Positions 21,765 to 32,927 of a stretch of DNA of 61,532 nt are shown here, piece after piece. How positions within the stretch are numbered: the first letter of the stretch is position 1; each line of letters opens with the position of its first letter. The notes beneath the pieces are model-generated. The model did no database searches. It saw only the letters and a list, made by a program, of their open reading frames with translations, and had not been told where the DNA came from. The stretch comes from Nostocales cyanobacterium Centralia_MAG_434 (lineage in GTDB: Bacteria > Cyanobacteriota > Cyanobacteriia > Cyanobacteriales > Nostocaceae). The DNA lies in assembly GCA_021324415.1 (NCBI GenBank), contig JAJPJF010000280.1, forward strand, positions 1 through 61,532, in the 5' to 3' direction. A program made the translations under genes and the position numbers.

Positions 21765-24700
21765 ATGACACTCATTCAACGTACAACCCTGCACTATCAG
21801 GAAGGAACTTCTAATAAAATCTACGAAGTCGATCTATGCCAGATAGACGAGGGGTATTACGTAGTCAATTTTCGATACGGACGATCTGGCACTAAGTTGA
21901 AAGAAGGCACAAAAACGACGGAAGCTGTACCTTTAGCCCAAGCACAGCAAATCTTCAAAAAACTTGTTGGTGAAAAGACGAAAAAGGGATATCGTGATGT
22001 GACGATACCAGATCTCATTGAACCTCAACCCATAGCCACAGACGATCCGCGAAAACAGGCTATCCTTAACCGCCTTGCCAACAATAAACCTAGTCAATGG
22101 AAGCTAGAAAGAGCAATTTGGCGTGCTGGAGAACTTAAAATCAGTGAAGCAACACCACTCATTCTTAAGCTTATAGGCACAGGTGAACCCCTAAGAGATT
22201 ATTGCATTGCTTGGGCTTTGGGTTGGTGTGGCACAAAAGAAGCTATTGCGGCTCTCATTAACTTACATCAAAACGCCTCAACTCCAAATTTTGTAAGTCG
22301 CATCGCTTTTGAAGCACGACTGAAACTCTCGGATGCAGAAACCAAAGCAAGTTTACAGGCGGAAATGATTAAATTTTTGCCACCAGAATTACGCTCATTA
22401 GCACACAATGGTTCACAAGAAGCGTTTGCCACAGCTTTACAAAGTCATTTAAAGCACAGCACCTATAAGCATTTTGCCGTACTCGATACAATTTATCAAA
22501 TCGATAACCAGTATGTTCGCCCAGCACTGCTGAATATTTTATCCAACGCGCCTTTTCAACCAAACTACTTTCAAAGACTGCGTCATATCTTCAAAATGGC
22601 TGAATATCGCCATGATGCAGAAGTCTTTGGGATTTTAACTTACCGCCTAGAAAAAGAGCAGGCAAGTTTTAACAGCAACAGTTATTATGTCAAGCTGCCT
22701 AACAATGAATATCTTCGCAAAATAGTTTATGAGAATGGCAACAGATCTAATAGAAATGAAATAGAAGAAGAGTTAAAACATCCACAATCGAGAATTGCCT
22801 ATAGCAGTAAGACTCGTGAATACTTGCTTCGGCGTGTGTGGCGCACCCTTAAAAAACTAGGTGAACAAGGAGATCCTGAATATATCAAAATAGCTGCTGG
22901 TGTTCTCCTGCAGTATTCTGATCAAGATGCTGAACAAGTGATGGAGTCGGTTTTCTACCGTTGGAATCGTTCCAACTGGACTCGTATTCAGTTTAAGCGT
23001 AACTGGGATGCATTTGCTGGATATTTAACCTTTAACCACATTCTCTATGAAAATAGTCCTCGCTATGAGTTAAAACCCAATTCTCACGCTTGGCGCTGTC
23101 GGGAAGGTTATAAGCCAGGAGATCCTGAACCTCAAGTACGGGAAGAGGCTTTTCCCCAACTGTGGGAGCAAAACCCACAAGCACTGCTACAGTTACTTTT
23201 ACAGAGTCATTGTCTTTTAGTACATCATTTTGCTGTCAAAGCTTTAAGAGTTTGTCATCATTTCTGTGCTTCCTTAGATACGGATACAATCATCCAATTA
23301 GTAACAAAACCTTACGAGGTAACAGCACAATTTGGTACAGAATTAGCACTTGTAAAATACAACCCCACTCAACCAAACACGGAATTGATTCTTGCTCTTG
23401 TTAACAGCTTATCTGAACAAGGTCGTGCCCAAGCTTACCTCTGGATTGAGGAACAACGTGAATATTTCCTAGAAGACAGCAACTTCATCACTGCTTTGAT
23501 CACCAGTCCACAGACTGAGACTCGTACCTTTGCTCGTAGGCTATTGGCTGGATCGATTTTAAGCGATCGCACTGCTCAAGTTCTTGCCGGACGTATCATT
23601 GCTGAATTGCTGACATTGAAGCCAGCACTCCACGAAACCTCTTTGATTGAGAAGGGAATTAGAGAGTTAGCAAAAGAAATTGGTGAAACCCTACTGTTAT
23701 GCTTTCCACTTCAGTTGCGTACTTTAGGTTTGAGTATAATTGATGACTTTTTAGCTCATTCTCTGCTAGAAATCCAAGAACTAGGAGCTCGTATTCTACT
23801 AAACCACGAAATCAGCTCAGAGAACTTACCGCCTCAGATCATTGAATCGCTACTTGCATCACAAAATCAATCATTAAGAGTTCTTGGTATCAGACTATTT
23901 GGACAGTTACCTGATGAGAAACTCATCTCTGAAGAGAGAACTCTGATGGTAGGCATGGCAGTGAACGCCAAAGAGGATATCCGCAATGCCATCAAACCCA
24001 TTATCCATCGTTTAGGAAAAGCTCATCCAACATTTGCGATCGCCCTAGCATCCGATTTTATAGAAGTCCTGCTTACCCCCGAAAAATACGAAGGCGTTCA
24101 CAGCTATTTAGCACGTCTGTTGCGGGAAGACTTACAAGGGTGGATCTCAAGCATCAACAAAGAGACAGCTTACAGGCTCATTCAAGCTAAGTCTTCAACT
24201 TCACAAGAATTAGGGGGTTTAATACTAGGTGCAAATTACCAAACCTGGGTTGAAGAATTTACAACCAGCGAAATCGTTAGACTTGCTAATCACGAAATTC
24301 TATCAGTACGAGAAGCTGCACGGCAGATATTTGTGCAGATTTTAGACCGTTTACGCACAGATGCACAAGAAATGTTGACCGCAGTCCGAATGCTAGAAGC
24401 AAAGTGGGAAGACTCACGTGAATTTGCCTTCAAAATATTCACAACAGAGTTTAGCAGTGCAGAATTTACACCCAGCGTTTTAGTAAGCATTTGCGATAGT
24501 GTACGAGAAGATGCAAGAAAACTGGGTCGTGATTTATTGACTCGTAATTTTCAAGCAATAGATGGGCAAGAATATCTCCTAAAGTTTAGTGAACATCCAT
24601 CGCAAGATATGCAGTTATTTGCCACAAATTATCTAGAAAAATATGCTGAGAATTATCCAAAAAGATTACGTGAATTGAGCCCATATTTTGTGACTGTTCT

Positions 24701-24938
24701 TTCAAATGTTAACCGTGGTCGTGTTGCGAAACAGCGAATTTTTAATTTTCTGAACGCGGAAGCACAAAAAAGTGAGGAAGCCGCGAAAATCGTTGCAGAA
24801 ATCATGACTCGACAGTCGTTAACGATGGCGATTGGTGATAAAGCGACAGCAATACAAATTATGTTACAAATTTACAAAAACTATCCTCATTTATCATTGC
24901 CAATTCAATTAAAAGCCGTTTCTGAAGTGAGAAGTTAA
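21765..24938 (+). CDS. WGR-domain plus HEAT/ARM-repeat protein (retron-associated)
   Basis: This 1057-residue protein is the first gene of a three-gene set. Residues 1-90 form a WGR domain (LHYQEGTSNKIYEVDL, VNFRYGRSGTKLKEGTKT), a nucleic-acid-binding module also found in PARPs. The rest is alpha-helical, with HEAT/ARM-like repeats visible as repeated ALGWCGTKEAIAALINLH- and RVLGIRLFGQLPDEKL-type units. There is no membrane segment. From memory of published retron classifications, type XIII retrons pair an ARM-repeat protein and a WHSWIM protein with the RT; this gene would be the ARM component. It may be the effector or target-sensing subunit (inference). Confidence 0.85.
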   Translation: MTLIQRTTLHYQEGTSNKIYEVDLCQIDEGYYVVNFRYGRSGTKLKEGTKTTEAVPLAQAQQIFKKLVGEKTKKGYRDVTIPDLIEPQPIATDDPRKQAILNRLANNKPSQWKLERAIWRAGELKISEATPLILKLIGTGEPLRDYCIAWALGWCGTKEAIAALINLHQNASTPNFVSRIAFEARLKLSDAETKASLQAEMIKFLPPELRSLAHNGSQEAFATALQSHLKHSTYKHFAVLDTIYQIDNQYVRPALLNILSNAPFQPNYFQRLRHIFKMAEYRHDAEVFGILTYRLEKEQASFNSNSYYVKLPNNEYLRKIVYENGNRSNRNEIEEELKHPQSRIAYSSKTREYLLRRVWRTLKKLGEQGDPEYIKIAAGVLLQYSDQDAEQVMESVFYRWNRSNWTRIQFKRNWDAFAGYLTFNHILYENSPRYELKPNSHAWRCREGYKPGDPEPQVREEAFPQLWEQNPQALLQLLLQSHCLLVHHFAVKALRVCHHFCASLDTDTIIQLVTKPYEVTAQFGTELALVKYNPTQPNTELILALVNSLSEQGRAQAYLWIEEQREYFLEDSNFITALITSPQTETRTFARRLLAGSILSDRTAQVLAGRIIAELLTLKPALHETSLIEKGIRELAKEIGETLLLCFPLQLRTLGLSIIDDFLAHSLLEIQELGARILLNHEISSENLPPQIIESLLASQNQSLRVLGIRLFGQLPDEKLISEERTLMVGMAVNAKEDIRNAIKPIIHRLGKAHPTFAIALASDFIEVLLTPEKYEGVHSYLARLLREDLQGWISSINKETAYRLIQAKSSTSQELGGLILGANYQTWVEEFTTSEIVRLANHEILSVREAARQIFVQILDRLRTDAQEMLTAVRMLEAKWEDSREFAFKIFTTEFSSAEFTPSVLVSICDSVREDARKLGRDLLTRNFQAIDGQEYLLKFSEHPSQDMQLFATNYLEKYAENYPKRLRELSPYFVTVLSNVNRGRVAKQRIFNFLNAEAQKSEEAAKIVAEIMTRQSLTMAIGDKATAIQIMLQIYKNYPHLSLPIQLKAVSEVRS

Positions 24939-25033: not shown

Positions 25034-26674
25034 ATGGAATTTAACTACACTTATAAAGGAAGCACTGAAGTTTTAGAGCGCAGCAACAGCACCCAAATGT
25101 CCTTTTCTCCAGACACAAAGCGTCCACCCACTTACTTTATTGGAGAATTACGACAAAACGTTGCTTTTCGTGAAGCCATTAGCGCTTTACATGATGTCGT
25201 TATTTCCGATATGCAGTTTAAACCAAAAGACAAAACTGCTTATAAAGAATGGCGTGCCAAACAAGAGGATATTGACTGGGAAATTGTCGCGGCTATGCGT
25301 CAAGACACGGCTGATAAAATTAAGCAGTTACAAGAAGAGTTAACTGAGTTAAAGAAATCTAGTTATGAACGCTGGCGTCCTTATTATCAAGCACAACGTC
25401 ACTATTTTGATTACCTTTATGAAAAAGACCGTGATGCTTGGTTTGTACTTGATCCAGTGATTACGGTTCACCCTGATGAAGTATTTTTTGAATGTTTTAG
25501 TGTAGATGAGTCGAGTTATGGACGTCTAGGTGCAAGTTATGAAGTCTTCAAAAATATTCATGAATTTGCCTGCGGTACAACCAATATAGATTACTCAGCA
25601 GCACTCTATGATGAGTTTCAAAAAATCCGCAGCTATAAGAGTACCCACTTACAAGTTGATCCTTCCGGTTTTGAAGTTCAAACGACTAACGAAGCAGCTT
25701 ATAAAGAAGTCAAAATTGACTTGCCAGATAGCTGGGTGAGAGGCTTTTTGCAGGTCAGTTCGGCAATGTCTTTACCAGCCGTCAGGTTTGATTTACACCC
25801 GATGGACATCCACAACATTTGTTTTGTGTTGCGTCGTCACAAAGAGACAAAGGGTCCACGCAGCATGCGGTATCATCTTCAGCCTGGTGAACCAGTACGC
25901 GTGGTATTTGAACCATGGGAGAAAGAGGTTGTGTGTCCGCGATCGCGTTACCTGGGAAATGAACCACAAATCATTCGGGTTTGGGGACGTCGCCGTCTCC
26001 ATATTCTCGAACGCCTCATTCCTGTTGCCAACAAATTTACTGTTCATCTGTTGGGAACAGGTATGCCTTCCTTTTATGTTGCTGACTTGGGTGATATGTC
26101 CTTTACATTAGGTTTATCGGGATGGACTGCGAATGATTGGTCCCAATCTGGTAATTTTGACTTAATGGCACCCCGTGCTGATGTGGACGAATGGACACAA
26201 AAAATCATTTTTGATGCATTGCAAGAGAATTGGCTAGAAACGGCTGATAGCCTTGCACAACGCTTGAAATTCAGCCGAACAGCTGTGCTAGGGGCGTTAA
26301 GTGCTTATACACAGGCAGGGCGTATTATTTACGATTTAAATAAACAAGTCTATCGTGTGCGGGAACTCAGCCGTGAACCATTACCTATGGAAAGATTACG
26401 CTTTGCCAATGAACGCGAAGAAAATGCAAAGCGATTTTTAAATCAGAATGCCGCACAAGTGACATCGGTGAATGATCGAGATGGTGTATTGGTTTTACAA
26501 GGTAATATTCGAGACAACGAGAAAACTTACAATCCATCTTTGACGATTGATCAAGACGAGCGTATAATCGAGGCAGAGTGTACTTGCAACTGGCATCAGC
26601 AAAACAAGCTGTACAAAGGTCCTTGCGAGCATATTCTGGCACTACGGATGCAATACGTTCGTCAGTGTCGTTAG
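25034..26674 (+). CDS. winged-helix/SWIM zinc-finger protein (WHSWIM, retron-associated)
   Basis: This 546-residue protein lies 95 bases after the WGR gene. A helical region with a coiled coil lies at about residues 65-130. A winged-helix-like segment sits at about 395-455 (LAQRLKFSRTAVLGALSAY, AGRIIYDLNKQVYRV). The C-terminus has a SWIM zinc finger, C516-x-C518...C531-x-H533, within ECTCNWHQ...GPCEHIL. SWIM and winged-helix modules bind DNA, so this subunit probably recognises nucleic acid. The stop codon TAG (26672-26674) immediately precedes the predicted msr-msd RNA, so all three genes and the RNA are likely one transcript. Confidence 0.85.
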   Translation: MEFNYTYKGSTEVLERSNSTQMSFSPDTKRPPTYFIGELRQNVAFREAISALHDVVISDMQFKPKDKTAYKEWRAKQEDIDWEIVAAMRQDTADKIKQLQEELTELKKSSYERWRPYYQAQRHYFDYLYEKDRDAWFVLDPVITVHPDEVFFECFSVDESSYGRLGASYEVFKNIHEFACGTTNIDYSAALYDEFQKIRSYKSTHLQVDPSGFEVQTTNEAAYKEVKIDLPDSWVRGFLQVSSAMSLPAVRFDLHPMDIHNICFVLRRHKETKGPRSMRYHLQPGEPVRVVFEPWEKEVVCPRSRYLGNEPQIIRVWGRRRLHILERLIPVANKFTVHLLGTGMPSFYVADLGDMSFTLGLSGWTANDWSQSGNFDLMAPRADVDEWTQKIIFDALQENWLETADSLAQRLKFSRTAVLGALSAYTQAGRIIYDLNKQVYRVRELSREPLPMERLRFANEREENAKRFLNQNAAQVTSVNDRDGVLVLQGNIRDNEKTYNPSLTIDQDERIIEAECTCNWHQQNKLYKGPCEHILALRMQYVRQCR

Positions 26675-26914
26675 TCACGCGTCTGAGAGTTGGTAAGCAA
26701 TCCTTGCAATTCGGGCGGTGCGATCGCCGTCCTTGCGTTTAGCCGTAAAGCAGCATCACTAGCCCACTCTTGACTGTGCGGTCTTACGGGTACTGTCGTT
26801 ATTCCGGACTGAATTCGGTAAATTGAATGAACGACAGTACCCGTGACCGCTGGAGTTGAGTGGTCTAGTCCAGAGGGATTTACGAAGGGAAAGCCAACAA
26901 AAAACAGCGCGTGA
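26675..26914 (+). ncRNA. predicted retron msr-msd RNA
   Basis: The expected retron order is visible. a1 (26675-26693, TCACGCGTCTGAGAGTTGG) pairs with a2 (26894-26914) through TCACGCG/CGCGTGA, CTG/CAG and GTTGG/CCAAC. Directly after a1 is TAAGC, with G26697 the candidate branch guanosine. msr hairpins follow: GCAA-tcc-TTGC (26697-26707) and GGGCGG/CCGTCC (26713-26732). The msd is a long hairpin at 26758-26869. Its outer stem ACTAG-CCACTC pairs with GAGTGG-CTAGT, the next stem is GCGGTC/GACCGC, and an inner 14-bp stem CGGGTACTGTCGTT pairs perfectly; the loop is 29 bases. It ends 28 bases before the RT start codon. Boundaries are inferred by eye. Confidence 0.8.
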
Positions 26915-26942
26915 TTTTTTTCAACCAAAAATCGCCTGCTAC

Positions 26943-28364
26943 ATGACAGACCAACCTCGTACTCGTCAAGAACTGTATGATCGTATCCGCCAGACCAGTA
27001 AAGAGGAATTTATCCTCGAAGAAATGATTCGTTATGGTTTCTGGTCTGCGCAAGGTGAAGCCCCCCAAGATCCAGCAGATGAAATTCGGCGTATTGGGGA
27101 AATTCGGCGAGAACTAGAACAACTACGGCAAGAAGCTAGTCGTCTCCGTAATGAAAAAGAATTGCGGAAGCAGATGTTAAAGCAACGACTAGAAGAGTCG
27201 CGGCGCAAGCGTCAAGAAACCAAAGAACGGCGAGAACAAGAAAGACAACAACGTGCTCAAGTTTGGAATCAGAAAAAGCAGCAAGCAATTGTCTATCTTG
27301 GTGAGGATGTGTCTGCTGGGTTAAATCAGACCCAAAGTAACGAGGAACGATTGCAAAGTTATGGGCTACCCTTATGTAACACCCCTGAACAAATTGCCAC
27401 TGCAATGGGAATCAGTGTGGGAACACTGCGATTTTTAGCATTTAACCGCAAAACTTCAACTGTCTCCCATTACATCCGCTTCAAAATGCCCAAAAAAACG
27501 GGGGGAGAACGGATCATTTCAGCGCCCATGCCAAGATTAAAGCAAGCCCAGCACTGGATTTTAGAGAATATTTTGCAAAAGCTAGAAGTTCATGACGCTG
27601 CACATGGTTTTCGGCGCGATCGCTCAATTGTCACTAACGCGACACCCCACGTTGGTGCTGAAGTCATTATCAACTTCGACCTCAAAGACTTTTTCCCCTC
27701 CATTTCCTACAAACGTGTCAAAGGGCTTTTCGAGTCCTTCGGTTATTCTGAAACTGCGGCGACGATATTTGGTTTACTATCTACGGCTGCAGAAGTGGAA
27801 GCACTAGAATTGGATGGTCGGACTTACTATGTCGCATTGGATGAAAGACACCTCCCTCAAGGTTCACCAGCAAGTCCAGCCATTACCAACCTTCTATGTC
27901 GGCGCTTAGATCGGCGTTTAACAGCAATGGCAGAAGCCTTAGGTTTTACATATACCCGCTACGCCGATGACCTCACCTTTTCTGCTTCTGGTGATAGCCT
28001 ACGTCATATCTGCAATATTCTTAGGCGCACAGAGTCAATCGTGACACATGAAGGTTTTACCATTAACCCAGAGAAAACCAGAATACTACGGAAATCTCGC
28101 CAGCAAGAAGTGACTGGAGTTATTGTTAATGATAAACCTAATGTTTCCAAGAAAACTTTGAAGCAGTTCCGCGCTACCTTATATCAGATCGAAAAAGATG
28201 GACCAGAAGGCAAATTCTGGGGAAACTCTCCGGACATCATTGCAGCTATTAAGGGATTCGCTAATTTTGTTGCAATGGTCAATCCACAGAAAGGTGCTGA
28301 GTTTCAGCAGCAAGTCCAGCGGATTCAAAAGAAATATTGTTCCAATGTACCAAGCAAGTTATAG
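26943..28364 (+). CDS. retron-type reverse transcriptase
   Basis: This 473-residue RT would copy the msd into multicopy single-stranded DNA. Retron hallmarks are present: NATPH (NAxxH motif, residues 232-236), FDLKDFFPSI (245 onwards), LPQGSPASP (304-312), catalytic YADD (340-343) and EVTGVIVN (VTG motif, 390-392). Residues about 46-116 are an unusually long charged coiled coil (EIRRELEQLRQEASRLR and on). The frame continues upstream to 26856, but that stretch is inside the msd hairpin. The ATG at 26943, after a2, is therefore chosen. There is no maturase or HNH domain, so it is not a group II intron protein. Confidence 0.92.
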   Translation: MTDQPRTRQELYDRIRQTSKEEFILEEMIRYGFWSAQGEAPQDPADEIRRIGEIRRELEQLRQEASRLRNEKELRKQMLKQRLEESRRKRQETKERREQERQQRAQVWNQKKQQAIVYLGEDVSAGLNQTQSNEERLQSYGLPLCNTPEQIATAMGISVGTLRFLAFNRKTSTVSHYIRFKMPKKTGGERIISAPMPRLKQAQHWILENILQKLEVHDAAHGFRRDRSIVTNATPHVGAEVIINFDLKDFFPSISYKRVKGLFESFGYSETAATIFGLLSTAAEVEALELDGRTYYVALDERHLPQGSPASPAITNLLCRRLDRRLTAMAEALGFTYTRYADDLTFSASGDSLRHICNILRRTESIVTHEGFTINPEKTRILRKSRQQEVTGVIVNDKPNVSKKTLKQFRATLYQIEKDGPEGKFWGNSPDIIAAIKGFANFVAMVNPQKGAEFQQQVQRIQKKYCSNVPSKL

Positions 28365-28457: not shown

Positions 28458-29648
28458 TTAGGAAACATACCAATCGAGGGAAACTTTTGAAGTAGAAGCC
28501 CCACTAGAAGTTGTATCATTGATGAACCAAAGAGAGTCATCACCCGTTTGAGAGTTACGCCAGAACACATCTGACTTACCATCGCCGTTGTAATCACCAA
28601 TACTTGGCTTCCAAGAGGGATCAGTTTTTGGTAGAAAAGCAGCTGTGGAGATTTTTGTGCCATCCATTAGCCAGGCAGTATTCTCACCTGTCGTATTATT
28701 GTGCCAGAAGATATCAGTCTTACCATCACCGTTGAAATCACCAACGGTAGGTTGCCACGCTAGATCTTCCTTCTGTAAAGAAGCTGAGTTAACGATAGTG
28801 CCATTCATCAACCAAACAGTATTCTCACCTGTTTTTGAATTGCGCCAGAGAATGTCAGTCTTACCATCACCGTTAAAATCGCCAATATTACTCAAATTCC
28901 AGGATGAGTCAAGTTTGGGTAAAGCAAATGTATTGGAATTAGTTCCATCCATAAACCAAACATTGTTTTCACCTGTTGTCTGATTACGCCAGAGGATATC
29001 GGTCTTACCATCACCGTTGAAGTCAACAATGGTAGGTGTCCAAGATGCGTCAGTTTTTGAAATATAAGCAGCAGTTGTGACTGTTGTACCATCCATCTGC
29101 CAAACGGCATTTTCACCCGTTTTCGCATTACGCCAAAAGATATCGGTCTTGCCATCACCATTAAAATCGGCAGTGCTAAATGTCCAGGAAGGGTCAATTG
29201 ACTGTAAAGAAGCTTGAGAGCCAATTTTATTACCATCCATCAGCCAAATTGTGTTATCTCCGGTTTTCGTATTGCGCCAGAAGATATCAGTCTTCCCATC
29301 GTGGTTAAAGTCAGCAAACCGATAATCCCAGTCTGAGCTCATTTTTTGCAGAGAAAATGAACTAGGCTGATTGCCATTCATCAACCAAATGGTAACGTCA
29401 CCCGTTTTCGTATTACGCCATAATTTATCGTTCTTGCCATCACCGTTAAAATCGGCAGAACTTGCAGGACCATTGAAAAAAGAATTTTGATTCGGTTTTT
29501 GTGTTGCTTGTACTGATAGTGAGGACTTCCCAAGACTCAATTCAGAAGTTAAATCAGACGACATAGCTGAAAAGCTATTTGAGACGTTGAGAGATTGCAA
29601 TGCACTAGTATACGTAGAAACGTTTAGTGGATTATTAGATGCCAACAT
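28458..29648 (-). CDS. FG-GAP/VCBS-repeat protein 1
   Basis: This protein of about 396 residues has seven repeats of about 46 residues after a Ser/Asn/Leu-rich N-terminal 75 residues. Each repeat reads roughly DFNGDGKTDILWRN, then TGENTVWLMNG. The D-x-N-x-D-G-x-x-D loops should bind calcium, and seven repeats predict a 7-bladed beta-propeller. There is no classical signal peptide. The ATG at 29648 (MLASNNPLN) aligns with the MLSSQNSLN start of the next copy and is preferred over a GTG at 29663. It is one of three tandem paralogues. A surface or matrix adhesion role is possible but unproven. Confidence 0.87.
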   Translation of the reverse strand: MLASNNPLNVSTYTSALQSLNVSNSFSAMSSDLTSELSLGKSSLSVQATQKPNQNSFFNGPASSADFNGDGKNDKLWRNTKTGDVTIWLMNGNQPSSFSLQKMSSDWDYRFADFNHDGKTDIFWRNTKTGDNTIWLMDGNKIGSQASLQSIDPSWTFSTADFNGDGKTDIFWRNAKTGENAVWQMDGTTVTTAAYISKTDASWTPTIVDFNGDGKTDILWRNQTTGENNVWFMDGTNSNTFALPKLDSSWNLSNIGDFNGDGKTDILWRNSKTGENTVWLMNGTIVNSASLQKEDLAWQPTVGDFNGDGKTDIFWHNNTTGENTAWLMDGTKISTAAFLPKTDPSWKPSIGDYNGDGKSDVFWRNSQTGDDSLWFINDTTSSGASTSKVSLDWYVS

Positions 29649-30167
29649 GATGCTTTTTATCACTAGTGTCCATTATTTTTTTAACTATTTTTTTTCGTTT
29701 TTTCTGTTAAAGAATAACATCGGCTAATTTTTATTATTTCTAATAAGCATCATTTGTTTGATATATATATGTATGATTACAAACATTCAAATATTGAGAG
29801 TATGACGAAAATCTATCTGAAAAATATTACTTTCTAGATTCCTATATTTGTATAAAAAAATATTCTGAAAGTAGCAAAAATAAAATTCAAGAGATGAAAA
29901 ATCACCTAAGTAGAGTTTCTATTTTTAACTAATTAAAAATTACTTGTCATGTACTTATGTTCATTTGTACTCAATGACTTCTATGGCACATAAAAAAATG
30001 GAATGGGCGTCTTGCCCATCCCCAAAGAAAAATTAATAAGAGTGTGGGGTAGGTGTCTTACCCATCCTGTCTTCATGTGCAAGATTGCATTCTGTATTCT
30101 CCTAATATTTAAGAGAACTAAAGAGGGTGTCAAATAAGTATAACTTTCTCAAGAATTGGTATGAGTT
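29649..30167. other. intergenic region with shared motif and small palindromes
   Basis: A 519-base AT-rich gap between two propeller genes. At 29706-29721 lies GTTAAAGAATAACATC, close to sites upstream of the next copy. Two related palindromic elements occur at about 30003-30023 (ATGGGCGTCTTGCCCATCC) and 30043-30065 (GGTAGGTGTCTTACCCATCC). No ORF is credible. Confidence 0.45.
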
Positions 30168-31451
30168 TTAGAAGGTATACCATTCTTTAGAAAGTGTTGC
30201 TTCAGAAGTCGTAGTCGCTACCTTTGTACCATCCATTGTCCAAATGGTGTTCTCACCTGTGCCGTAATTGCGCCAGAAGATGTCAGTCTTGCCGTCGCCG
30301 TTGAAATCACCAATGCTAGGTTGCCATCCTGAACCAAGTGTCGGGAGAGTAGATGCAGTCGCTGTTGCACCATTCATTGTCCAAAGAGTATTTGTTCCCG
30401 TTGAACTATCACGCCAGAGGATATCAGTCTTGCCATCGCCGTTAAAATCACCAATGCTGGCTTGTGAATTAGCGCTAGTCTTCGCTAGAACGGTTTCAGA
30501 TGGTGTAGCACCATTCATCAGCCAAACTTTGTTCTCACCTGTTTTAGTGTTGTGCCAAAGAAGATCACTTGCATAATCACTATTAAAATCACCAACGCTA
30601 AGCGTCCAGTCTGAACTCACTGTTGGCAGTGTAGAAGCCGTTGCAGTCGTACCATTCATGAGCCAAACTTGGTTTTGACCTGTTTGAGTGTTACGCCAGA
30701 CGATATCTGTTTTGCCATCGCGGTTGAAATCAGCAATGGTAGGTGTCCAAGAAGGGTCAAGCTTCTGCAGTGCAGTACTTGCTGCTACAGTTGTGCCATT
30801 CATTGTCCAGGCAGTGTTCTCACCTGTTTGAGTGTTGTGCCAGAGAATGTCAGTCTTACCATCACCGTTAAAATCAGTAATGCTGGGTGTCCAGGCAGAA
30901 CTCAATGTTTGTAGCGAAGCTTGAGAAGCAATTTGTGTACCATTCATCAACCAAACCTGGTTTTCTCCTGTTTGAGAGTTATGCCAGAGAAGGTCGGTTT
31001 TGCTGTCACCATTGAAATCAGCGATTTGATAAGTCCATTGCGCACCAAGTGTTGGCAGCGAAACTTGAGATGTTACTTTGGAACCATCCATCAACCAAAC
31101 CTGGTTCTCACCTGTTTGCGAGTTGCGCCAGAATCTGTCAGTCTTACCATCGCCATTAAAATCCACCAAAATCGCTGCACTACTAAATATAGGATTAGGA
31201 TTGGGGTTTTTTGTTGCTAGTAGAGACTTGCTCGAGGCTTGCTGTTGTGTTGAAGAGCTACCAGAACTCAAAATATCTTCTAATGATGGTGAAGAGCTTC
31301 CTATGTTCGAAAAAGAACCTAAAGTATTTTGTAGGTCTCCAATGTTTGAAATGCTATTTAAACCAAGTGAGCCTAGAAGACTATCTGAAGGTAGCAGAGA
31401 TTGTAATGCATTGGAACTTGTAGAATTCAAAGAATTTTGAGATGACAACAT
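30168..31451 (-). CDS. FG-GAP/VCBS-repeat protein 2
   Basis: This 427-residue paralogue again has seven repeats. The calcium-loop starts read DFNGDGKTDRFWRN, DFNGDSKTDLLWHN, DFNGDGKTDILWHN, DFNRDGKTDIVWRN, DFNSDYASDLLWHN, DFNGDGKTDILWRD and DFNGDGKTDIFWRN. The N-terminal 100 residues are Ser/Leu/Asn-rich and low in complexity. No signal peptide or membrane anchor is obvious, so any export would need a non-Sec route. Antisense ORFs across the repeats are shadows. Confidence 0.87.
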   Translation of the reverse strand: MLSSQNSLNSTSSNALQSLLPSDSLLGSLGLNSISNIGDLQNTLGSFSNIGSSSPSLEDILSSGSSSTQQQASSKSLLATKNPNPNPIFSSAAILVDFNGDGKTDRFWRNSQTGENQVWLMDGSKVTSQVSLPTLGAQWTYQIADFNGDSKTDLLWHNSQTGENQVWLMNGTQIASQASLQTLSSAWTPSITDFNGDGKTDILWHNTQTGENTAWTMNGTTVAASTALQKLDPSWTPTIADFNRDGKTDIVWRNTQTGQNQVWLMNGTTATASTLPTVSSDWTLSVGDFNSDYASDLLWHNTKTGENKVWLMNGATPSETVLAKTSANSQASIGDFNGDGKTDILWRDSSTGTNTLWTMNGATATASTLPTLGSGWQPSIGDFNGDGKTDIFWRNYGTGENTIWTMDGTKVATTTSEATLSKEWYTF

Positions 31452-31841
31452 GATTTTTATTTTGCCTTCATCGTCATAAACCTTTTAACTTTTTTTTCAA
31501 AAGCATTTCAAGTGTTATATAAGAACATCTATAGTGGTTTAATTATTTTTTTATAAATAAAAGTGTTATACAATAACATCTCATATGTTCTAATTATTTT
31601 GTTTAAAAAAACAAGTCTTATTAGATATTTTTTGCAAATTTAAAAGTTATTCAATAACATTTTCAAAGCTATTTTTAACCAAAAAATTTTCTATTAATTA
31701 AAAAAATATCTCATTTTTTTATGTTAAAATACGATACGTTTCAGTTAACACAAATTCTTAGTAGCAATGAGCTTAATTAATGACCCTCGCTTCTTTGATG
31801 GTCTATTAACTTGACTGTTTGTCTTATTCAGTATTGTGCTA
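31452..31841. promoter_or_regulatory. AT-rich region with three GTTAT-N3-ATAAC-type dyads
   Basis: Upstream of propeller gene 2 (minus strand), dyads lie at 31514-31526 (GTTATATAAGAAC), 31565-31577 (GTTATACAATAAC) and 31646-31658 (GTTATTCAATAAC). The first two are followed by ATCT. A related site lies upstream of propeller gene 1 at 29706. They look like repeated operator sites for one regulator. The regulator is unknown. Confidence 0.45.
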
Positions 31842-32927
31842 TTACGCTACAGATAGCACTGTGGAAAGTTGTGTTGCTAGAGAAGACCCAGTCAAACTCT
31901 TGCCGTTCGTCAGCCAAATCGTGTTCTGTCCCGTTTCTGTATTGTGCCAAAAGATATCTGTTGTCTTGCTACCATCACCTTTGAAACTCCCAACGTATGG
32001 TATCCAAGCGGTTGGAAGTGTTGGCAACGAAACCCCAGTGGCATTTGTGCCATCCATCAGCCAAACAACGTTCTCTCCAGTGAGCCTATTACGCCAAAAG
32101 ATATCGTTTTTGCTGTTGCTTTTGAAACTAGCAATACTCAAATCCCAGTTTGAATCTAGTGATGGTAGAACAGATGTGGCAATAATTTTCGTGCCATTCA
32201 TCAGCCAAACAATGTTCTCTCCAGTTCGTTTGTTACGCCAGAAAATGTCGCTATTATGATCGCCGTTGAAATCACCAATCAAAAAATCCCAGTCAGAAGT
32301 GGGTGCCAATAAAAAATTCTCTACAAAAGCTTGCTCGGTAACTACCGTACCATGCATCAGCCAAACAACATTCTCACCAGTTTGCTGATTGTGCCAGAAG
32401 ATATCACTGTTGCGATCGCCGTTAAAATCACCAAGTTTGTAATTCCAGTCAGCAGCAAACATCTCTAAAGTAGACTCGGTGGCACTTGTGACCGGAAACC
32501 CTGTGGCATTCGTGCCATTCATTAGCCAGACGACATTCTCTCCGGTCCATCTATTGTGCCAGAAAATGTCGTGATTTAAATCTTCATTGAAACTACCAAT
32601 ACTGAGGTCCCAGTCTGAATTCAGAGAAAAAAGATTTTTGACAGCGACAACATTCGTCCCATCCATCAGCCAAAGTTGACTCTCACCAGTTTGCTGATTG
32701 CGCCAGAAGAAGTCACTCCTTCCATCACCATTAAAATCACCAGTCGCAAACTTCCAGTCAAAATCAAATTGTGGTAAAAAAGCCTCCGTAGTGTTTAAAT
32801 CATTTACGCGCCAAAGCGCACACTCACCAGTTTCAGGATTATGCCAAACAATATCACACTTCGCATCGGCGTAGAAATCCTCGAAAATGACTGTTTGGTT
32901 TAATGGAGGGTTGGTATCTACTGTCAT
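31842..32927 (-). CDS. FG-GAP/VCBS-repeat protein 3, diverged copy
   Basis: This 361-residue protein also has seven repeats, but it lacks the long Ser-rich N-terminus and starts almost directly in the first blade (MTVDTNPPLNQTVIFEDFYADAKCD). Several calcium loops are degenerate (SFNEDLNHD, SFKSNSKND, SFKGDGSKTTD), so this copy is older or under different constraint. Spacing between blades is also irregular, with insertions near residues 145 and 195. It is on the same strand as copies 1 and 2. Confidence 0.86.
   Translation of the reverse strand: MTVDTNPPLNQTVIFEDFYADAKCDIVWHNPETGECALWRVNDLNTTEAFLPQFDFDWKFATGDFNGDGRSDFFWRNQQTGESQLWLMDGTNVVAVKNLFSLNSDWDLSIGSFNEDLNHDIFWHNRWTGENVVWLMNGTNATGFPVTSATESTLEMFAADWNYKLGDFNGDRNSDIFWHNQQTGENVVWLMHGTVVTEQAFVENFLLAPTSDWDFLIGDFNGDHNSDIFWRNKRTGENIVWLMNGTKIIATSVLPSLDSNWDLSIASFKSNSKNDIFWRNRLTGENVVWLMDGTNATGVSLPTLPTAWIPYVGSFKGDGSKTTDIFWHNTETGQNTIWLTNGKSLTGSSLATQLSTVLSVA

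Follow-up and report, generated by a model that had tools for sequence, protein, structure and literature searches.

Retrons in general are described as systems in which a complex of a reverse transcriptase (RT) and its msDNA holds a toxic effector in check until a phage infects the cell (excerpts of PMC12548924 and PMC8867640). Among the described systems, Ec86 (Retron-Eco1) resembles the element analysed here in the order a1, msr, msd, a2, in an inner a1/a2 helix end that is followed by GC, and in the start of reverse transcription at a cytosine, and the priming G of retrons lies in an AGC context (excerpts of PMC6868368). The RTs of the myxobacterial retrons Mx162, Mx65, Sa163 and Ne144 share a long N-terminal extension and cluster with two RTs of cyanobacterial origin, and the Mx162 precursor is 241 nt long, compared with 240 nt for the element described below (PMC6868368, excerpts). 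Covariance models of msr-msd RNAs are already included in PADLOC (PMC9252829, excerpts), and an msr-msd RNA is a known kind of element. The open-access literature searched yielded no description of the RNA of type XIII retrons and none of a naturally unlinked RT and RNA, tandem msr-msd arrays, an embedded promoter or a clamp-like fold.

The window, that is, the whole 61,532-nucleotide stretch of DNA analysed, from Nostocales cyanobacterium Centralia_MAG_434, carries a contiguous retron cassette in which the RNA-model match is separated from the RT by 51 nt; the genome yields a single RT match at E ≤ 1e-60 and a single copy of the RNA. The protein-coding genes of the cassette are the following.

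21765–24938, plus strand: WGR-HEAT protein of 1057 amino acids (PADLOC WGR_XIII, E = 0; Pfam WGR, 9.5e-9, and HEAT_2, 5.2e-9), the putative effector or regulator of a type XIII retron.
25034–26674, plus strand: SWIM protein of 546 amino acids (PADLOC SWIM_XIII, 9e-247; Pfam SWIM, 0.0005, slightly above the cut-off).
26943–28364, plus strand: retron reverse transcriptase of 473 amino acids (PADLOC RT_XIII, 1.5e-204; Pfam RVT_1, 2.3e-26).

For each of the three proteins, the best-scoring PADLOC model is the one of type XIII, a class that reportedly goes back to Mestre et al. 2020, and for the RT, the RT_XIII model reaches 678 bits compared with 339 for the next one. NCBIfam gives no match above the cut-off for the WGR, SWIM or RT proteins. 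The same partner genes recur elsewhere: of the 71 named loci for which 6.4 kb or more is available 5' of the RT, 54 have SWIM upstream and 50 have WGR upstream. In the RT tree, the closest relatives of the window's enzyme come from an uncultured cyanobacterium, Scytonema, Rhizonema, Chlorogloeopsis and Hassallia. On the minus strand 3' of the retron (28458–32927), there are several genes built from repeated FNGDGKTDIFWRN-like units, which, judging by eye, we take to be FG-GAP-like.

The interval between the SWIM and RT genes, 26675–26914, is strongly supported as the msr-msd RNA of the adjacent RT's retron. It consists of the following parts.

26675–26705, plus strand: a1 strand, ending with CCTT (26702–26705); the CCTT/AAGG helix is 93.8% paired in the homologues, and two of its four pairs changed on both sides.
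26713–26732, plus strand: msr hairpin of 8 bp; 99.5% of cells are paired, and five of the eight pairs changed on both sides.
26758–26869, plus strand: msd hairpin, with basal stems 26758–26762/26865–26869 and 26764–26769/26858–26863, followed by the stem 26778–26783/26845–26850.
Top of the msd hairpin, plus strand: a 2-nt bulge, a perfect 15-bp variable stem (26786–26800/26830–26844) and a conserved apical region.
26885–26914, plus strand: a2 strand, from AAGG (26885–26888) to CGCGTGA (26908–26914), delimited by the fold, the covariation and the duplex test.

Most of this architecture had been proposed in the initial annotation and holds up. The terminal repeat, TCACGCG at 26675–26681 pairing with CGCGTGA at 26908–26914, can be read directly from the sequence, and the further paired blocks of a1 and a2 (CTG/CAG, GTTGGT/GCCAAC and TCCTT/AAGGG) are present in the minimum-energy fold; a1 does begin immediately after the SWIM stop codon (TAG, 26672–26674), and the gap between a2 and the ATG of the RT at 26943 is, as claimed, 28 bases. 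The msd hairpin indeed spans 112 nt, from ACTAG to CTAGT, and its inner stem, given as a perfect 14-bp helix (26787–26800 with 26830–26843), is perfect and gains one extra pair, for a total of 15 bp (26786–26844). Two short msr hairpins had been proposed, of which that at 26713–26732 is well supported, whereas the second one is not. The sole candidate found for it, TTTA 26738–26741 with TAAA 26746–26749, pairs in 51.6% of cells; shuffling gives 43.1%, a single one of 500 shuffles matching the observed level, and a one-column slide gives 44.3%. It shows fewer pair types than the shuffles do and is absent from both the single-sequence fold and the consensus fold; a second hairpin was rejected because its pairing is little above that of the one-column slide and it is missing from both folds. 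The equation with the Ec86-type order is right with respect to the layout, but the RT and the partner genes match type XIII models, and the element differs from Ec86 in its type of RT and effectors, in a priming context that is mostly TGC, and in that the RNA and the RT are often unlinked. A search of Rfam over the RNA yields no hit at or above a family's gathering score, the only hits being two miRNA models below threshold.

The fold of 26672–26920 has a free energy of −106.8 kcal/mol, against a mean of −72.99 for shuffled sequences (z = −7.19; none of the 200 shuffles equals it). Homologues were collected through relatives of the RT, drawn from 100 relatives, 388 genomes of the order and named genomes (80 of the 114 loci were kept), and a profile search of these loci gave 58 distinct RNA copies with sufficient coverage, 48 of which make up the core alignment. 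The copies left out are near copies (L005, L032, L038, L065 and L081), one with an insert in the msd (L031), one with a replaced 5' part (L073) and three with a diverged 3' part (L085, L086 and L088). RNAalifold finds 39 consensus pairs in the 48-copy core, 27 of which changed on both sides. For the covariation test, the inner a1/a2 helix was added and one lone pair removed, yielding 42 pairs and 2015 cells; 94.4% of the cells pair, compared with 81.6% after shuffling and 46.5% after a slide by one column, and 28 of the 42 pairs changed on both sides, with neither this number nor the 94.4% pairing reached by any of 500 shuffles. The number of further pair types is barely raised (67 against 60.4 in shuffles; 5 of 500 shuffles). 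Compensatory changes, whose absence the initial annotation had named as a refutation, are present in the a1/a2 and msd stems, and on this point, the proposal of an msr-msd RNA stands.

The outer strands of a1 and a2 are too variable for a good alignment and were therefore tested as duplexes in 53 copies (L073, L085, L086, L088 and one duplicate dropped). The mean energy with a copy's own partner is −31.2 kcal/mol, as opposed to −15.2 kcal/mol with the partners from other copies, and none of 10 000 permutations is as good; individual copies vary, such that for the weakest one, L098, 31% of the other partners are equally good, and for the a1 of the window, 15% of the other copies provide an a2 that is at least as good as its own.

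A covariance model, R1, built from the 48 aligned copies gives 43 matches over 87 sources. It finds the RNA 5' of RTs at unused loci of Chitinophaga and Chryseobacterium, and on a Methylobacterium plasmid, also 5' of an RT, at a locus outside the model building (E = 5.4e-36); the RNA is conserved across several bacterial phyla. At L085, L086 and L088, an RNA with an extended and diverged 3' half adjoins a second RT, and the respective genomes hold a standard copy elsewhere. Weak, shortened matches to the RNA model were observed 3' of the RT at L022 and L023, where the RT relatives align from residue 129 onward only, within longer open frames; these two loci perhaps represent a related retron type.

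The RT and the RNA go together in genomes. Among the 388 genomes of the order, 70 have both, one has the RT alone, two have the RNA alone and 315 have neither (RT at E ≤ 1e-150, 71 genomes; RNA at E ≤ 1e-10, 72 genomes); the Fisher value for this co-occurrence overstates the independence of the observations because the genomes are phylogenetically clustered. The RT-only genome, G055, has a relative of the RT without the N-terminus and no RNA, and the RNA-only genomes, G022 and G404, contain a WGR-SWIM-RNA arrangement with no RT detected. All 30 RT-bearing genomes that were searched directly with the model have the RNA (E ≤ 0.001). The arrangement of the two components is far less uniform: in 33 of the 70 genomes, the RNA and the RT share a strand, with the RNA no more than 5.2 kb upstream; in the other 37, the placement differs, and some of these cases, with the RT close to a contig end, are uncertain.

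The RNA seems to be a separate transcription unit with its own promoter in the SWIM gene, to judge from the following sequence signals.

26540–26568, plus strand: predicted promoter of the sigma-70 type, within the coding sequence of SWIM (TTGACG, 17 nt, TATAAT; 11 of 12 consensus positions).
26915–26921, plus strand: T-run directly 3' of a2, a possible terminator.

Transcription would start near 26575. The scan of 801 bases that detected the promoter found two promoter-like sites where 1.0 was expected. A looser form of the motif is present in 33 of the 41 SWIM genes scanned (43 genes given, two of which had no anchor match) and missing from five of the six non-cyanobacterial ones. Across 35 cyanobacterial SWIM genes, the excess of synonymous-codon conservation is the strongest in the gene at the promoter site and just 3' of it. 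The observed versus expected values at the promoter codons are 0.94 versus 0.21 for TTG, 0.84 versus 0.21 for CGT and 0.94 versus 0.39 for ATA, and those at the expected start are 0.88 versus 0.27 for GCA and 0.89 versus 0.50 for TGT; the scorable codons between the hexamers show little or no excess, with the exception of ACG/ACA, which contains the end of the −35 element (0.50 versus 0.26). It counts against the promoter reading that the motif sits in a conserved stretch of the protein. A T-run of at least five within 50 nt 3' of the core is present in 26 of 35 cyanobacterial copies, compared with 4 of 21 other copies, and is lacking in the remaining nine cyanobacterial copies; a simple terminator scan omits 26915–26921 because the stem is long-range.

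The point at which reverse transcription is primed appears to differ from that proposed at first. The initial annotation had the branch at G26697, within TAAGC (26694–26698), and the template extending to 26893; AGC at 26696–26698 is found in 1 of the 58 homologues and a G at this position in 2, and this assignment is abandoned. Two other sites are nearly invariant.

26706, plus strand: putative priming G and branch point, in the context CCTTGCAA; conserved as G in 57 of the 58 homologues; assigned by analogy with the AGC priming context.
26883–26884, plus strand: predicted start of reverse transcription; C26883 in 52 and G26884 in 55 of 58 homologues, immediately before AAGG.

G26706 is followed by C in 57 of the 58 copies, and its context is TGC in 54 and AGC in three, the latter all from Nannocystis. 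This genus, the source of Ne144, has type XIII loci in which the predicted branch column reads AGC. Given the conservation of G26706 and of C26883-G26884 together with the described retron rule, we infer that the branch point is G26706 and the first template base C26883, which, lying next to the AAGG of the inner helix, would be a better start than 26893. The conservation of G26706 could also be structural because helix 2 (GCA/TGC) pairs this base in an extended msr hairpin.

One competing account takes the first layout to be exact, with the branch at G26697, the template reaching 26893 and the RNA in one operon with the RT, as in Ec86. The AGC at 26696–26698 agrees with the described priming context (PMC6868368, excerpts), and in the window, the RNA does lie directly 5' of the RT; however, the one AGC and two G among 58 homologues compare poorly with 57 of 58 for G26706, 37 of 70 genomes have the RNA somewhere other than upstream of the RT, and the RNA has a promoter signal of its own. 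We consider this layout very unlikely.

Separation of the RNA from the RT is best seen in genomes in which both are located on one contig. In G059, a single contig of 7 020 691 bases, the RT is at 5.45 Mb and a WGR-SWIM-RNA block at 6.87 Mb, 1.42 Mb away, and each of the two is matched once in this genome, the RT at E ≤ 1e-20 and the RNA at E ≤ 0.01. Calothrix parasitica NIES-267 has one RT (E ≤ 1e-60) at 3.05 Mb and RNAs at 1.858 and 1.864 Mb, a distance of 1.19 Mb, again on one contig; the corresponding distances on single contigs are 0.64 Mb in G103, 1.1 Mb in G178 and 5.7 Mb in G214. A remote RNA is located 3' of WGR and SWIM in G059, NIES-267 and G103, 3' of SWIM in G214, and alone in the fetched stretch in G178; no RT was found in the 18 kb fetched around the remote RNAs of G059, NIES-267, G103 and G214. 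These cases bear on the view that the split is an artefact of draft assembly or that the remote RNAs are relics. Several of the 37 non-adjacent RTs are indeed close to a contig end and most of the genomes are drafts, but in 14 of the 37, going by coordinates alone, the RT is on the plus strand and the contig continues for more than 7 kb upstream of it, and the remote RNAs of G059, NIES-267 and G103 follow SWIM genes that align over the full length, which, along with the five single-contig splits, makes this view very unlikely. Assembly artefact as the sole cause of the split loci was rejected on account of the single-contig splits.

The RT tree has 96 rows (67 cis, 22 split and 7 unlabelled; L018–L030, L080, L116 and those loci that were duplicated under another id were excluded) and requires 10 changes between the cis and split states, or 9 once L015, with no more than 3.0 kb of sequence available upstream of the RT, and L118, with a weak RNA match, are also left unlabelled; 24 of its 93 inner branches are poorly supported. 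With 9–10 changes, the separation of the RT and the RNA has therefore probably occurred repeatedly, and a single ancestral split was rejected on the same count. Spread by plasmids or phages as the main route was likewise rejected: the RT was found in a single plasmid record at E ≤ 1e-60, and at E ≤ 1e-30, no phage record covered 80% of its length.

That the element is instead a regulatory RNA, or a 3' UTR or processing element of the SWIM mRNA that is not reverse-transcribed, the RT using another template, is extremely unlikely: many genomes have the RNA immediately 3' of the SWIM stop codon, at a great distance from the RT, and the two RNA-only genomes are in line with this idea, but in Chryseobacterium, the RT follows the RNA and is itself followed by WGR-SWIM, L058, L067 and L129 carry a copy right before the RT besides the one after SWIM, and the retron-like layout, with the end of the inner helix beside near-invariant GC and CG, as well as the co-occurrence with the RT, speak against it.

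Two observations concern the surroundings of the RNA and the RT. At L173, L174, L175, L178, L201 and L206, the RNA is present with no WGR, SWIM or RT match in the 12–18 kb fetched (tblastn, E ≤ 1e-6). In 13 of 98 RT loci (e.g. L057, L061, L078, L081 and L017), a gene for RNase III terminates no more than 700 nt 5' of the RT, often preceded by a gene for a NYN-domain protein (Pfam: RNase III in L057, L078 and L093; NYN in L057 and L078); RNase III is a possible processing partner of the RNA.

Some genomes have several RNAs per RT. Between SWIM and the RT, L091 has four copies about 256 nt apart, L095 three and L099 two; L008, L058, L067 and L129 have one copy 3' of SWIM and one 5' of the RT. 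In the class of G427, the RNA was found in 13 of 162 genomes (E ≤ 1e-6), and eight of the 13 contain two or more neighbouring copies. The copies in L091, L095 and L099 each have their own a1/a2, and in the seven arrays folded (L091, L095, L099, L185, L187, L188 and L189), each copy folds its own long hairpin. The sequence of the msd hairpin seems able to change fast. The arms of the msd are 78–95% complementary in the 48 aligned copies, scored with the bulge, and yet, between L008:1192 and L033:1162, where the framework is 97% identical, the arm is 48% identical, compared with a shuffled level of 46%; the respective RTs have 97% amino-acid identity and 82% identity at fourfold sites. Fast change of the arm is not universal because Oscillatoriales (94–100%) and Nannocystis (88–100%) keep theirs.

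The SWIM protein appears to hold a PCNA-like clamp fold, according to AlphaFold2 models based on 22 sequences (pLDDT 68.4) and 74 sequences (pLDDT 77.9, pTM 0.77). Residues 34–366 are predicted to adopt this fold, and the SWIM zinc finger is near 508–537. The first model matches PCNA and the 9-1-1 clamps with Foldseek E-values down to 1.3e-9, and the structural Z-scores to clamps are up to 18.9 for the first model and 19.5 for the second (PCNA, rmsd 2.7 over 233 residues). Sequence methods give no match of the SWIM protein to PCNA, and the best hit in a sequence search of solved structures is FANCL, with E = 0.065. The likeness to the PCNA and 9-1-1 clamps is one of predicted fold, with 7–14% identity among the matches listed, and the SWIM protein differs from them by a helical insertion and by C-terminal parts that include the SWIM motif; a common predicted fold would not by itself prove a clamp function.

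Taken as a whole, the account that we consider very likely is that 26675–26914 is the msr-msd RNA of a type XIII retron, with transcription, priming at G26706 and control of the effectors as follows. The RNA would be transcribed from the promoter at 26540–26568 within the end of the SWIM gene, stop at the T-run after a2, and fold into the long a1/a2 stem, the msr hairpin and the 112-nt msd hairpin. The RT would recognize the fixed framework, prime from the 2'-OH of G26706 (2'-5') and copy from C26883 back to about 26757–26765, giving a cDNA of about 120–127 nt, the core of which would be the perfect 15-bp hairpin with a changeable sequence and a conserved tip. By the defence and toxin-antitoxin logic that the system presumably shares with other retrons, the complex of msDNA and RT probably keeps the clamp-like SWIM protein and the WGR protein inactive until phage infection disturbs the complex.

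A broader proposal is tentative, and we find it plausible without being quite persuaded: type XIII retrons may be naturally trans-acting and modular, with an autonomous RNA gene and an RT that is possibly megabases away, with one RT serving two to four RNAs of a common framework in several lineages, their fast-changing hairpins amounting to a repertoire of msDNAs, and with a PCNA-like-clamp effector. For the type XIII retron, the analysis yields a testable model of the RNA and its cDNA. The clamp-like fold in an effector would hint at a link to replication or to the surveillance of DNA. The tandem RNAs with altered hairpins suggest that the hairpin sequence evolves separately from the framework, a clue to what retrons sense. 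If the RT and the RNA are naturally separate, the enzyme must locate its template in trans, as it does in engineered retron editing.
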